This document shows, one piece after another, positions 16,446-53,154 of a stretch of DNA of 64,000 nt (the stretch's first letter is position 1; each line of letters starts with the position of its first letter). A program made the translations under genes and the position numbers. The notes below the pieces were generated by a model. It searched no databases, was not told the origin of the DNA, and worked only from the letters and a program-made list of their open reading frames with translations. This stretch comes from Desulfosudis oleivorans Hxd3 (GTDB lineage Bacteria; Desulfobacterota; Desulfobacteria; Desulfobacterales; Desulfosudaceae), in the NCBI RefSeq assembly GCF_000018405.1, contig NC_009943.1, forward strand, positions 2,173,001 to 2,237,000. The letters are read 5' to 3'.

Positions 16446-17567
16446 ATGATCGATGGCAGAATAAAAATTTTTGTAACAGGCACACGCGGAATTCCGGACA
16501 TATCGGGGGGTGTTGAAAAACATTGCCAGGAGCTGTATCCCCTGATTGCCGCGCAGGGCCACGATGTGTTTGTGGCCACGCGCAAAAGCTATGTGAACGA
16601 TCCCGGCGTTACGGCGTGGGGCGGGGTTTGGCTGATACATCTCTATGCGCCCCGCAAAAAGAGCCTGGAAGCGGCTGTGCATACCTTTCTGGCGGTTTTA
16701 AAGGCGCGGCAGGTAAATCCGGATATTCTGCATGTGCATGCCGTGGGGCCTTGCCTGATGGTGCCCTTGGCCCGCCTGCTTGGCATGCGGGTGGTGATGA
16801 CCCACCACGGCCCGGATTATGAACGGCAGAAATGGAATAAACCGGCTAAGTTGGTGTTGCGCCTGGGGGAATGGCTGGGCGGGTGTTTTGCAAATGAAGT
16901 GATTGTCATATCCCGAATCATTGAAACCCTTGTTCAAAAAAAATGCCGCCGGCCCTGCCATGTGATTTACAACGGTGTTCGGCTGCCGGAAAAAACGGAA
17001 AAGACCGATTACCTTGAAACCATCGGCGTTTCGCCGGGGCGCTATATTCTTGCTGTGGCCCGGTTTGTGCCGGAAAAAGGATTGGACCTGCTGGTAAAGG
17101 CGTTTAAAGAGATTAGGGGAGATTTCAAGCTGGTGATTGCCGGAGACGCCGACCATGAAACCACCTACAGCCGGAACCTGAAAGAAGAGATGGCCGGGGA
17201 TGACCGGATTGTGAGCACCGGCTACATTACCGGGGAAGCGTTAAACCAGGTCTATTCCCACGCCGGGCTGTTTGTGTTGCCATCGTTTCATGAAGGGCTG
17301 CCCATTGCCCTGCTGGAGGCCATGAGTTACGGCCTGCCGGTGCTGGTATCGGATATTCCGGCCAACCGTGAGGTGGACCTGCCTGAGGAACGATTTTTTC
17401 GGTGTGGGGATGCGCCGGACCTGAAAAAAAAGATCGAAGCCCTTTGGGATAAAGATCTGACGGTTGATGAAAAGAATCATTTCAGAAACCTGCTTGCGAA
17501 ACAATACAACTGGGATAAAATTGCCAGGCAGACGATTGAAGTGTATGAAAGAGTTCTAAGCGGATAG
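16446..17567 (+). CDS. GT4-family glycosyltransferase (d)
   Basis: 373 residues, 7 bp after the radical SAM gene. The N-terminal motif is TGTRGIPDISGGVEKHCQEL, the donor half has AVARFVPEKGLDLLVKAF, VIAGDADHE and the E-x7-E motif HEGLPIALLEAMSYGLP. GT-B fold, cytoplasmic. The TRGIPxxxGGVE start is typical of a GT4 subgroup in exopolysaccharide loci. Confidence 0.88.
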   Translation: MIDGRIKIFVTGTRGIPDISGGVEKHCQELYPLIAAQGHDVFVATRKSYVNDPGVTAWGGVWLIHLYAPRKKSLEAAVHTFLAVLKARQVNPDILHVHAVGPCLMVPLARLLGMRVVMTHHGPDYERQKWNKPAKLVLRLGEWLGGCFANEVIVISRIIETLVQKKCRRPCHVIYNGVRLPEKTEKTDYLETIGVSPGRYILAVARFVPEKGLDLLVKAFKEIRGDFKLVIAGDADHETTYSRNLKEEMAGDDRIVSTGYITGEALNQVYSHAGLFVLPSFHEGLPIALLEAMSYGLPVLVSDIPANREVDLPEERFFRCGDAPDLKKKIEALWDKDLTVDEKNHFRNLLAKQYNWDKIARQTIEVYERVLSG

Positions 17568-17772
17568 GTGGGGGAAACAGGAATGATGAATGATGAGTGA
17601 TGATTCCGTGGGCCGTCACCCTCGGGCTTGACCCGGGGGTCCAGAATAAATTGGCCCCGTTTCGTATGGATAAGGAAACAAATCAATTTTACACTGGATT
17701 GCCGGATCAAGTCCGGCAATGACGGATGTGGTAGTGGTGGCGGATCAATTTTATGCTGGATTACCCGGACAA
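17568..17772. repeat. Intergenic palindromic repeats with ATGATGA run
   Basis: No gene. ATGATGA-type units occur right after the GT4 stop (17581-17605). Then comes a composite palindrome pair: a CCCTCGGGCTTGACCCG hairpin (from about 17628), an AT-rich spacer ending in AATTTTACACTGG, and a GCCGG-type hairpin up to about 17723. A third hairpin starts at about 17757 (CTGGATTACCCGG) and is broken by the IS110 element. Confidence 0.7.
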
Positions 17773-17789
17773 GCCGCCTATGAGAAAGT

Positions 17790-18130
17790 GAGTCAACAAA
17801 AAACACTTCTCCCTTAACAAAAATCGTTTTTTGCTCACGGTCTCCGCCTTGCCTTTAAACCATCGTCTTTTCGCCGAGGTAACGTAACGCGGTTTTTCCG
17901 GTCTTGCTTTATCCAGTATTCCTTATCCGCCTATCTGAACTCTCTATCTCTGCTTGCAGAGAATGGGTTACGATAAATTCCAGGAATAGAGGGGAGGCTA
18001 ATCGGGTAAACAAAGCATCATCCGCTTAAGCAGATGTCTTACGGCTTGACTTGAGCTCTTTCCCCTCACCTGCACAGACCATCATCCAGTATGATGAAAC
18101 CATCGGCTCAAGAGAGGTCTACAGGCCTGG
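17790..18130 (-). ncRNA. Candidate seeker/bridge RNA region of the IS1111-type element
   Basis: This non-coding segment lies between the transposase stop and the left subterminal repeat. In IS1111-type elements the guide RNA (seekRNA/bridge RNA) is reported to come from the region 3' of the transposase gene. ATCGGGTAA at 18001-18009 is identical to the first nine bases of the right target flank (19221-19229), which fits a target-guide segment. Exact RNA ends cannot be read from sequence; the whole segment is given. Confidence 0.4.
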
Positions 18131-19129
18131 TTATTTCACGGTCACGTTATCTGTTTGGCGACTCCTTTTATAAGGCTGATATTTTTCCCCGCTTTTAAAA
18201 ACCCCCAAGCTTAACGTCGCTAACCTGCGACAGGCTTTGTGTCGGGCGTCATATTCGGGTTCGCCCCCAGCTACCAAATATTCATAATAATCATTAATCG
18301 GATTATTCCCGCCAATGGCCGCACTTACACCGGTCTTATACACATCTTTTAATTGACGACAATATCGAGGCGTGCGTTTACCATAACTCTTTTTCCCGCT
18401 TATCTTCTCATGCTTGATCAGACCCGCGTAGCTACAGTAGTGCCCCTTGTCCGCAAACCGGAATGGCGATACTACACGTGCTACAACCTTGACGGCATTA
18501 ATATCCCCAATCCCCGGTAAACTCTTCTGGTGCCTTATCGCCGGGTATTTTTTGGCCAGACGCAAAAACTCTTTTTCATAAGCGGACTTTTCTTCCTCAT
18601 AAAGCCCAATCTGCCGGTTTAAACAGCCCAACACAAAAGCATTTTCACCAACAACTTCCTGATTGCCGCAGGCTTTGAGCAACGAGTACCGCTGATTTTT
18701 CAATCGCACCCCCGCTTTAACCAAATCTTCATAACCGCTGACGAGACGGCGAAGAAGTAAAAAATTATCGTTGGTATGAAAAATCTCCTTCAGGAGGCCG
18801 GCCCTCAATAATTGCACCAACTTTGACGCATCAATTTTGTCGTTTTTAGGACCATCGTTTAACAACTTATTTCTGTGAGGATCACACACTACGATCTTAT
18901 CCACCTTCTCCTTCAGTTCCGTGTACAACCATTGAGAAGTCGTCGTCTCCTCCAAGGTCAGAACCTTGGTCCCCTTTAACCGGTCTAAATAAAGCTTCAA
19001 TTCCTCAATGTCCGATGGTACGTCGATCACAGTTATTTTGTTTGATTTTTTCGTCATTCGCGCAATGGCCATATTGCTGGCTGCCCAGTCTATTGCAATG
19101 TAATGGTTGTAAATGGTATCGTCCATCAT
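18131..19129 (-). CDS. IS110-family transposase (DEDD recombinase)
   Basis: 332 residues from the first of two adjacent ATGs at 19129, behind a GAAAGGAGACC ribosome site; a longer frame to 19198 would run through a hairpin and is rejected. The N-terminal RuvC-like DEDD part shows AIDWAASNMAIA, LEETTTSQW and KNDKIDASKL. The C-terminal transposase-20 domain has SLPGIGDINAVKVVARV and the active-site Ser region YCSYAGLIKHE. It looks intact and could still be active. Confidence 0.9.
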   Translation of the reverse strand: MMDDTIYNHYIAIDWAASNMAIARMTKKSNKITVIDVPSDIEELKLYLDRLKGTKVLTLEETTTSQWLYTELKEKVDKIVVCDPHRNKLLNDGPKNDKIDASKLVQLLRAGLLKEIFHTNDNFLLLRRLVSGYEDLVKAGVRLKNQRYSLLKACGNQEVVGENAFVLGCLNRQIGLYEEEKSAYEKEFLRLAKKYPAIRHQKSLPGIGDINAVKVVARVVSPFRFADKGHYCSYAGLIKHEKISGKKSYGKRTPRYCRQLKDVYKTGVSAAIGGNNPINDYYEYLVAGGEPEYDARHKACRRLATLSLGVFKSGEKYQPYKRSRQTDNVTVK

Positions 19130-19307
19130 GGTCTCCTTTCTTGTTAGTGTTTGTCTGTGGAAAGCATTATCACTAACATATTGAGGCTGCCGCCTCAAAG
19201 GAGACCATCTTTCTCATTTTATCGGGTAATGACGGGTGCGTGGGCGGACAAGTTGGGTAATGACGAGAAGGTAGCGGATTTGGAGTTGATTTGAGGTGCG
19301 CTGAACC

Positions 19308-20840
19308 ATGCTGAGAGAAAACAATCAGATATTGCAACGAATTCATCAAGGCTGGGACCTGGGATTGACGGTAGCGGCGTTTATCTCAGCCTATGGTATC
19401 AAGCAGTATCTGCTGCCTGAACCCTGGAGAGGGTTAAGTAGGGAACCCAACTATTACACCCTGCTGCTGCTGTGCATCATTATCTGGTATGTGGTGTTCC
19501 GGTTCTCCGGTATTTATCGTCCCTATCGCAGACGGCCTTTTTCTTCAATTTTTCTAAATGTGTTACGAAGTGTGGCTGTTTGCGTGATGCTGATGGTGGT
19601 GATGCTGTTTCTCATAAAAGAGCAGACCGTCAGCCGGATTTTTCTGGGCCTGTTTGTGGGGCTGGACGTGACCCTGCTGGTGGGCAGCAAGTGGTTGCTT
19701 TACACTCTTTTGCAAAACCTGCGTAAACGCGGATACAACTTCCGCAACGTTCTGATTGTGGGACGCGGACAAAGAGCCGAAGAAATTTCCCGGTCTATTG
19801 AGCAACAGCGAGGGGCCGGCTTCCGGGTGATGGGGTGTTTGTCGGCTGGCGAAGGGGTGGATGACGAGGGAGGCGTCAAGCCGGATAATGGTGAACAAAA
19901 GAGGCCGGGGGGTGACGGGGGTGGAGGGCCGGAAGATGGCGAGATAGGGCTGGGTCATGCCGGCGGTGTGTGTGTGCCTGTTATCGGCGATATTGCGGAT
20001 ATCGAGCGGCTTTTGACCGAACATGTGGTGGATGAACTGGTGTTTGCCGAACCCCTGCGAAACATCCCAAACGCAGGCGAATATATCCACACGGCCGAAC
20101 AGATGGGTGTTTTGGTGCATATTATGCCGGAATGGGGGTTGCGACGCCTGGGACTTACACCACGGATGGGAACCCTGCAAATAGAGGCACTTTTCGGCCT
20201 GCCCACACTGGTCCTGAACACCACGCCGGATCATAATCCGTTTATCGAATTGAAAAATATATTCGACTTTATTGCCTCGGGCCTGGGCCTGCTGGCATGC
20301 GCCCTGCCCTTTGGAATAATTGCCATTGCCATCAGGCTCTCTTCTTCCGGCCCGGTATTTTATAAACAGGAACGGGTGGGCCAGAACGGCCGGCGGTTTA
20401 CGCTGTATAAATTTCGCACCATGATAGACGGCGCGGACCAAATACAAACAGATCTGCTGGACAAAAACGAAAGCGACGGGCCGGTATTCAAGATACGCAA
20501 CGATCCACGGGTAACACCATGGGTGGGCGCCTTTTTACGAAAGACCTCGCTGGACGAGTTGCCGCAGTTGATTAATGTGTTTGTGGGGCACATGAGCCTG
20601 GTGGGGCCCCGCCCGCCCCTGCCGGAAGAGATAGTAAAGTACGGCAAAGATCAGCGGCGGCGGCTGTCCATGAAGCCGGGCATTACCTGCCTGTGGCAGA
20701 TAACGCCGCGGCGGAATGACTTGAGCTTTAAAGAGTGGATAAAGCTGGACCTGGAGTATATTGACAACTGGTCGCTGTGGCTGGATTTTAAAATCCTGGC
20801 AAAGACGGCCTGGGTGGTGGTCACCGGGCAGGGGCGGTGA
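19308..20840 (+). CDS. Undecaprenyl-phosphate sugar phosphotransferase (WbaP-like)
   Basis: 510 residues. Four or five N-terminal membrane segments (to about residue 140), a nucleotide-binding-like middle domain (NVLIVGRGQRAEEISR), then the phosphoglycosyltransferase domain with KQERVGQNGRRFTLYKFRTM, RKTSLDELPQLINVF and LVGPRPPLPEE. It starts glycan synthesis by loading a sugar-1-phosphate on undecaprenyl phosphate. About 40 residues rich in Gly, Asp and Glu (near 182-222) are inserted before VPVIGDIADIE; part of this insert resembles the local intergenic palindrome. RBS GAGGTG. wbaP/wcaJ assignment left open because the sugar is unknown. Confidence 0.88.
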   Translation: MLRENNQILQRIHQGWDLGLTVAAFISAYGIKQYLLPEPWRGLSREPNYYTLLLLCIIIWYVVFRFSGIYRPYRRRPFSSIFLNVLRSVAVCVMLMVVMLFLIKEQTVSRIFLGLFVGLDVTLLVGSKWLLYTLLQNLRKRGYNFRNVLIVGRGQRAEEISRSIEQQRGAGFRVMGCLSAGEGVDDEGGVKPDNGEQKRPGGDGGGGPEDGEIGLGHAGGVCVPVIGDIADIERLLTEHVVDELVFAEPLRNIPNAGEYIHTAEQMGVLVHIMPEWGLRRLGLTPRMGTLQIEALFGLPTLVLNTTPDHNPFIELKNIFDFIASGLGLLACALPFGIIAIAIRLSSSGPVFYKQERVGQNGRRFTLYKFRTMIDGADQIQTDLLDKNESDGPVFKIRNDPRVTPWVGAFLRKTSLDELPQLINVFVGHMSLVGPRPPLPEEIVKYGKDQRRRLSMKPGITCLWQITPRRNDLSFKEWIKLDLEYIDNWSLWLDFKILAKTAWVVVTGQGR

Positions 20841-51990: not shown

Positions 51991-53154
51991 GTGCGCGTGT
52001 ACCTTTTGTTCAATCTCGCTGTTCTGTATTGTGGTTGTTGCCGGGCTCGATCCGGGAGGCCGGCATAAGATTGATTTTACCTTGTTAATACGGAATGCGG
52101 TGTCAGGTCAATTTTATTCTGGATCGCCCGATCCGGCTTTCGCCATGGTGGGCGACGGCCCGGCAGGCAAGCCCGGGGGGGGCGGGATGGGGAATGATGA
52201 ATGCGGAATGATGAATGATGAATACGTAGGCGTCATTATTCGGCTTGCGTGCCCTGCCCTGTCATTGCCTGCCCGGCTGCAATGCCCTTACGGGCACACT
52301 ACAAACGGGTATGCGCAGGCTTCATTACCCGTCCCGGATCGGAGTCCGGGATGACGGACCGGGTAATCCAGCCCCACCGCCGTCATTGCCGGGCTTGACC
52401 CGGCAATCCAGCGTAAAATTGATCTTCCACCCTATTAATGCGGAATTGGGTCATTTTTATTCTGGATTGCCCAATCAAGTTGGGCAATGACGAACTACCT
52501 TATCCGTCATTGCCGGGCTTGACCCGGCAATCCAGTGTAAAATTGATTTTGTTCCTTATTGAGGGGAACAGCCAAAGGCGTTCAAGATTGCTTCGCTTCG
52601 CTCGCAATGACACGAAACAGAAAATGCGGAACTGGGTCATTCTTGGTCTGGACCCCCGGGTCAAGCCCGAGGGTGACGAGGGGGGTTGGGCAATGACGGC
52701 TACGGCGGAACTGGGCCATTCTTGGTCTGGACCCCCGGGTTCCGCCGTTGCCAAGGCTATGGCGGACACGCAAGCCCGAGGGTGACGGCATACGTGGGTG
52801 TCATTATTCGGCTTGCGTGCCCTGCCCTGTCATTGCCTGTCCGGCTGCGATGCCCTTACGGGCACACTACAAACGGGCATACGTAGGCGTCATTACCCGT
52901 CCCGGATCGGAGTCCGGGATGACGGACCGGGTAATCCAGCCCCACCGCCGTCATTGCCGGGCTTGATTGGGTAGTCCAGTGTAAAATTGATCTTCCACCC
53001 TATTAATGCGGAACTGGGCCATTCTTATTCTGGATTGCCCAATTCCGCCGTCGCCAAGGCTATGGCGGACACGCAAGTTGGGCAATGACGAGGGGTGAGG
53101 CAAAGGGAATGATGAATGGGGAATGATGAATGATGAAAAACGGGCAATATAAAA
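51991..53154. repeat. Large intergenic repeat cluster with nested hairpins
   Basis: No gene in about 1.2 kb. It holds plain hairpins (52381-52411, 52462-52492, 52505-52535), hairpins with an inserted 30-nt stem-loop (insert at 52741-52770 and 53044-53073), one with a 35-nt insert (52133-52167), two hairpins with a TCCCGGATCGGAGTCCGGGA core (about 52325-52372 and 52889-52937), GTAG-type REPs (52282-52305 and 52850-52873), a TTGCTTCGCTTCGCTCGCAA hairpin (about 52587-52609) and ATGATGA runs. Confidence 0.75.

Follow-up and report, generated by a model that had tools for sequence, protein, structure and literature searches.

An insertion sequence within a palindromic repeat

The window analysed here, 64,000 nucleotides of Desulfosudis oleivorans Hxd3 (contig NC_009943.1, positions 2,173,001 to 2,237,000), contains a compact insertion sequence (IS) which very probably belongs to the IS1111 group and carries its own programmable guide RNA of the seekRNA or bridge RNA type. 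The complete IS occupies positions 17777 to 19224 of the window (1448 bp) on the minus strand, as do all its parts and flanks given below; the identical string is found at three loci of the genome, with flanks that can be rejoined. A previous reading of the letters alone (the sequence-only reading) had proposed an IS1111-type element inside a palindrome whose halves flank it. The flanking halves were found as described, and the type is borne out by a DEDD transposase, subterminal repeats and a predicted RNA in the downstream tail; the limits then given were 4 bp off, at the same length.

We placed the limits by means of the 9-bp subterminal repeats and the published extensions of 7 bp on the left and 3 bp on the right (PMC11187229). 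The left (ATGAGAAAG, 19209 to 19217) and right (CTTTCTCAT, 17780 to 17788) subterminal inverted repeats form a perfect 9-bp pair (I22). Beyond them lie the left extension CGATAAA, which includes a CG core (19218 to 19224, from the left-end alignment and the 7-bp/3-bp rule), and the right extension AGG (17777 to 17779, from the tail alignment and the joined flanks). In the orientation of the transposase gene, the left target flank CCCGTCATTACC (19225 to 19236) is the 5' part of a hairpin repeat, and the right target flank CGGCTTGTCCGGGTAATCCAG (17756 to 17776) is the remainder of it. Under the 7/3 rule the flanks rejoin to ATTACC/CGGCTTG without target duplication, which is the sequence of unoccupied copies of the repeat.

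The transposase gene (332 aa, 18131 to 19129) begins with an ATG at 19129, and a longer frame begins with a TTG at 19198. A scan of the 355-aa frame gave the Pfam domains DEDD_Tnp_IS110 (4e-12) and Transposase_20 (8.8e-11), both above cut-off. Together with the length of 332 aa they agree with the pattern expected of the IS1111 group, an N-terminal RuvC-like and a C-terminal Transposase_20 domain in a protein of about 330-350 aa. An alignment of six transposases, that of the window and those of five relatives, shows D14, E60/E61, D97, D100 and S244-G245 unchanged, residues that by our own assignment would represent the DEDD and SG motifs. The only solved relatives detected by sequence are the transposases of IS621 (the nearest, 5.8e-05) and ISCro4. 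There is also a weak match to NCBIfam TIGR_Tas_endo (18134 to 19129, minus strand; residues 126-301; 1.8e-09), under its cut-off.

Joining the ends of the IS brings TTGACT (17791 to 17796) and TAAAAT (19216 to 19221) to a promoter-like spacing of 17 nt (TTGACT-N17-TAAAAT), so that they could serve as the -35 and -10 halves of a putative circle-junction promoter, a feature known from the IS1111 family (PMC11187229). A pattern scan of the unjoined region 17700-19300 found no comparable promoter pair.

A predicted guide RNA downstream of the transposase gene

A scan of genome contigs yielded six relatives (57-74% identity in the best segment; five with left ends), and their tails could be aligned with that of the window element (individual loci are given below as L numbers). 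Two patches in this alignment vary amid conserved surroundings. The left patch directly precedes the conserved CGATTAGCC and resembles each element's own left flank, and the right patch follows the conserved GAGAGCTCA and resembles the reverse complement of each element's own right flank. In the window element they are the candidate left target guide TTACCCG (18003 to 18009), in the sense of the left flank, and the candidate right target guide CAAGCCG (18042 to 18048), the reverse complement of the right flank CGGCTTG. Both belong to a predicted seekRNA/bridge RNA module of about 157 nt with two domains (17914 to 18070, ends picked from the alignment) and lie in its target-binding domain, 79 nt inside helix 1 (17989 to 18067; columns 4-83 of the seven-sequence consensus fold). 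Two donor guides complete the module: a right one, TTTATCG (17971 to 17977), whose reverse complement is CGATAAA at the left end of the IS, and a left one, ATAGGCG (17928 to 17934), identical to the IS right end plus the core. These are mostly kept in the seven-row alignment, with changes in or next to the core in L033, L034 and L035 and of one base in L036.

Part of this arrangement had been noticed by the sequence-only reading as a 9-nt guide match between tail and target, and ATCGGGTAA is indeed present at 18001-18009 and at 19221-19229. The target-like portion is the 7-nt TTACCCG (TTACC plus CG, 18003-18009); the AT of the 9-mer is constant IS sequence, being part of the constant IS end CGATAAA and of the constant RNA segment CGATTAGCC. 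The second patch, at 18042-18048, had been overlooked. The proposal that the tail encodes a guide was right in substance and understated, as the comparison supports two target guides and two donor guides.

The seven-sequence consensus is a conserved two-domain fold that leaves both target guides unpaired in one internal loop and has some pairing between the donor guides TTTATCG and ATAGGCG; both sides have changed in 18 of its 44 pairs. A 16-sequence alignment, fitted to the RNA model and hence biased towards its fold, has 94.7% of its cells paired, a figure that falls to 43-48% when the partners are slid. Changes on both sides affect 24 of the 44 pairs in this larger alignment, against 10.1 in shuffles (none of 500 reached 24) and 3-11 in slid controls. 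The wider tail (17776-18130), folded alone, gives a z score of -2.43. Rfam models searched over 17000-20000, at E values up to 1, returned two matches, both far under their gathering scores. In the tail of L036 (920-1570), about 195 extra nt separate the guide RNA from the right end in alignment A1.

Target guides change together with the flanks

We compared the guides of each element with its own flanks and with those of the other elements. The test of the right guide covered eight distinct elements (the window element, L031-L034, L036, L082 and L088) and was scored on 8 nt, with a one-base freedom of register granted equally to own and foreign flanks. Own flanks scored 7 or 8 of 8 and were the best match in all eight elements, against a mean of 3.57 and a maximum of 6 for foreign flanks; only 4 of 100000 permutations did as well, close to the lowest count that eight items allow. 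The left guide was tested in seven elements over 8 nt that exclude the constant CG, and own scores were 6 for the window element, 7 for L031 and L034, 5 for L032 and L033, 4 for L035 and 2 for L088 (mean 5.14, against 2.29 for foreign flanks, whose maximum was 5). Here 55 of 100000 permutations scored as high, and the own flank was the best in five of the seven elements, the window element included. The covariation of loop and flank that the sequence-only reading had suggested examining is thus complete on the right and fails on the left for L035 and L088. The folding, the alignment of relatives and the search for further copies, which it had also suggested, came out in its favour as well. By our own reading, the T-for-C mismatch of L031 and the G-for-A mismatch of L033 would be changes allowed by pairing of the G-U type.

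Several loci entered these tests on one side or on neither. L078 and L080 were left out of the permutations, and only printed, because they share their guides with L032. L035 is absent on the right, where its contig ends after CA, and L036 on the left, where its contig begins within the gene. L082 was removed on the left by hand. The sole candidate for its left end, which would mismatch its guide, was judged false, and a later check showed that no more than the final 16-18 residues of its transposase are left, so that it has no left end. L083, L089 and L092 have a right end and no complete guide region, and L084 and L091 have guides and no ends that could be found.

Since the elements in which the patches had been recognised are among those scanned, a scan of all placements serves as a check of place and sense and not as a fresh sample. 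A 7-nt segment was moved along the columns of the 16-row RNA alignment, for both flanks and both senses, using the elements with known flanks (seven left, eight right) and skipping placements with fewer than five usable rows. Over the 2576 placements the difference between own and other flanks has a mean of 0.012 matches and a standard deviation of 0.337. The left patch gives the highest value of all, 2.83, and the right patch reaches 2.57; the best placement elsewhere gives 1.15. Each of the nine highest placements falls on one of the two patches, in the sense of the flank for the left one and as the reverse complement for the right one. The view that the match between tail and left flank exceeds chance is upheld by this first rank.

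We searched 99, 200, 193 and 291 genomes with a covariance model built from the tail, using stricter filters beyond 40 genomes, and found nine loci that had not been used in building it: five among the 99 relatives of the L033 genome, two among the 193 relatives of the L035 genome and two among the 291 genomes of the class. Among the 200 relatives of the L031 genome it found nothing besides L031 itself. Four held-out loci (L078, L080, L082 and L088) retain both the right end and an intact right guide, and all four match their flank, L082 at 7 of 8 nt with one wobble-type difference. L078 and L080, which share guides with L032, are therefore not independent, and the new guide sets number two of the four. 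On the left, guide and end are both available in two held-out loci, of which L080 matches (CTCTA plus CG) and L088 does not. The remaining five are truncated or without ends.

Two further observations concern individual loci. L034 has CG at its left junction and CA at its right one, its guides end in CG and TG respectively, and it looks as if donor and target cores had differed at the time of insertion. L032, L078, L080 and L084, from different genomes, have guide pairs that are identical or almost identical; L032, L078 and L080 have the same right flank, and L032 and L080, both of whose ends are known, are both inserted at CTCTACGAGCCGGAGGCC, which is therefore a second target common to several hosts.

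The target is one variant of a hairpin repeat

Three full copies of the IS, identical over 1448 bp, were found in the source genome (a single contig of 3,944,167 bp). All three interrupt the same repeat at one identical position, in differing surroundings; copies with identical tails in unrelated targets were not seen among them. The repeat can be written as the frame CGTCA-8-CTTGA-8-TCCAG, which has 68 exact full-length matches in the genome and none for a reversed-pattern control, in keeping with the dozens of copies claimed by the sequence-only reading. The stems of these 68 copies comprise 18 sequence pairs, of which ten are both fully paired and seen at least twice, and across all copies 538 of 544 stem cells are paired (G-T counted). 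Examples in the window, often clustered, are at 17614, 17694, 25114, 25196, 25237, 25279, 49318, 52381-52979, 53948 and 57055.

The stem variant that fits the guide is present in 14 of the 68 full-length copies, and all three insertions, as rejoined, belong to it. In addition, the exact 13-mer ATTACCCGGCTTG is unoccupied at no fewer than 23 sites of the genome (19 in one listing and four more found separately). The notion of a reusable safe site is only partly shown, by three occupied and at least 23 unoccupied exact sites and by the place of the window copy between two long frames.

As the stems have diversified by paired changes, most copies of the repeat retain the hairpin and lose the exact guide match. 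The guide would then read one allele of a structurally constrained repeat, and we mention, as a speculation that we consider improbable, that stem diversification could be an escape from RNA-guided insertion or be shaped by it, the swapped guides of the relatives being the answering moves. Bases of the right guide fall within the loop (CTTG), so the palindrome leaves the target asymmetric, and this asymmetry would explain the single orientation of the IS.

The rejoined targets at the three window-type sites are real hairpins, with z scores of -3.3, -2.7 and -3.5 against mononucleotide shuffles. Those of six relatives are weaker hairpins or none (L031 1.3, L032 -0.9, L080 -1.7, L033 -0.5, L034 -1.9, L088 -0.6), and hairpin shape as a target feature of the whole family is unsupported. 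A RAYT origin of the repeat was also considered. The genome encodes four Y1_Tnp (RAYT-like) proteins (G000:C1 2266880, 2032493, 921698 and 984285; L095-L098), and this origin was rejected, as the 3.3-kb loci fetched around them contain no hairpin repeat when up to one mismatch per constant block is allowed and 6 of 8 stem pairs are required.

Alternative explanations

Y1-type transposases act on palindromic repeats, and the 9-mer could be a chance match next to a hairpin whose shape is recognised by protein alone. Such recognition would suit the clear hairpin of the window target and the well-kept stem of the repeat. We give this explanation very little weight: the transposase is of the DEDD type, relatives use targets with weaker hairpins or none, and the guides covary with the flanks across relatives, on which ground a chance origin of the 9-mer was rejected. 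The same covariation might be read in another way, with the variable patches as scars copied from the flanks by excision or gene conversion, since in most elements they equal flank sequence. Scars, however, would have to be copied in the sense of the flank at the left patch and as the reverse complement at the right one, at fixed places within a conserved, covarying RNA loop. Moreover, across contigs and genomes the patches of L032, L078, L080 and L084 are identical or almost so, and the three loci of the L032 type with a readable right end share their right flank, so that this account has next to no chance of being correct. A guide-RNA element of the IS110 group, with an upstream RNA and without long subterminal repeats, is a different kind of alternative, concerning the group and not the guide. 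The NCBIfam and Pfam names cover the joint IS110 family and the solved relatives are those named above, which would allow it; we nevertheless hold it unlikely for an element with subterminal repeats and its RNA in the downstream tail.

We put at roughly 0.96 the probability that the element belongs to the IS1111 group of insertion sequences and encodes a programmable guide RNA. The assignment is carried by the anatomy, the fold, the covariation of both guides with the flanks, the match of the donor patches to the IS ends and the presence of three identical copies at one target. The features looked for in an IS1111 seekRNA or bridge RNA element (domains, ends, tail fold, guides, donor guides and junction promoter) all appear to be present, judging from the sequence. 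A number of observations weigh on the other side. The register of the right guide varies by one base among elements, and the left guides of L088 (2/8) and L035 (4/8) fit the flank of another element better. L076, a truncated copy of the L036 element that is identical to the L036 start over 127 nt, was not counted; by our own reading, its left flank fits the L036 left guide only partly. Taken alone, the window RNA (17914-18070) folds with a z score of -1.5, a value reached by 17 of 200 shuffles, and in this single-sequence fold parts of both guides are paired with one another. The match to NCBIfam transpos_IS110 (5.6e-33, 114.5 bits) is under the cut-off of 140. Finally, the 9-bp subterminal repeats are shorter than the usual 11-13 bp (PMC11187229); a range of 7-17 bp is given in PMC11208160.

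Proposed mechanism

By analogy with the published family, transcription, RNA binding, circle formation and catalysis may be pictured as follows. The IS would circularise, joining its ends into the TTGACT-17-TAAAAT promoter, which would transcribe the transposase gene and the RNA downstream of it, and this RNA would bind the DEDD transposase. In the hairpin repeat, the target loop would find a partner on each strand: to the right of the junction CAAGC-CG would pair with the top strand, and to the left of it TTACC-CG would pair with the bottom strand. The donor loop, through TTTAT-CG and ATAGG-CG, would pair with the circle junction AGG-CG-ATAAA on either side. The CG that donor and target share would be the point of recombination, and the IS would come to lie at ATTACC^CGGCTTG in a single orientation. 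The guide model thereby predicts the insertion site to the single base. The eight distinct elements in which right guides and right flanks have changed together amount to a natural test of that model, with RNA scaffold, donor guides and IS ends conserved while the guides changed.

Relation to known systems

Reports from 2024 (PMC11187229, PMC11208160) describe programmable guide RNAs for IS1111 and IS110 elements and include covariation of RNA and target, natural retargeting (ISEc11, ISXne4) and an IS1111 element directed to repetitive extragenic palindromes (REPs), ISPa11; insertion into REPs had been reported in 2006 (PMC1525189). The window element leaves the known mechanism unchanged and adds to it a compact 1448-bp element, probably programmable, linked to one variant of a well-defined repeat. 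Compared by published description, it is like ISEc11, ISKpn4, ISPst6 and ISPa11 in having a downstream tail RNA, subterminal repeats, 7-bp and 3-bp extensions, two guide patches in the same order (top-strand complement first) and no target duplication, and it differs in host, target and the 9-bp length of its repeats (PMC11187229). The RNAs of ISEc11 measure 154 and 82 nt (PMC11187229), against about 157 nt for the module and about 79 nt for the target domain here, with ends taken from the alignment. ISPa11, at the REPs of Pseudomonas aeruginosa, is similar as an IS1111-type element whose RNA patches match a dispersed palindromic repeat (PMC11187229, PMC1525189); for the window element, the frame of the repeat is constant, its stems covary, and only one stem variant is an exact fit to the guide. 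IS621 of E. coli, in the IS110 group, likewise has a bridge RNA with target and donor loops, a left and a right guide in each with the core dinucleotide included, and covariation with the target, but its RNA lies in the left end and its core is CT (PMC11208160), in contrast to the downstream RNA and CG core found here. The order of guides in the IS110 type is also the reverse of the present one (PMC11187229). A literature search found no title or abstract on this element; ISfinder was outside that search, and a name may already exist.

Distribution and surroundings

A protein search at E 1e-80 detected the element only in its own genome among 389 genomes of the class and 395 of the phylum (its own included; the sets overlap), and at E 1e-60 only in its own among three genomes of the family. 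No relatives were found in viral contigs, nor in plasmids (E 1e-40) or phages (E 1e-30). Within the window, the copy described here sits between two long frames, at 16446-17567 and 19308-20840.
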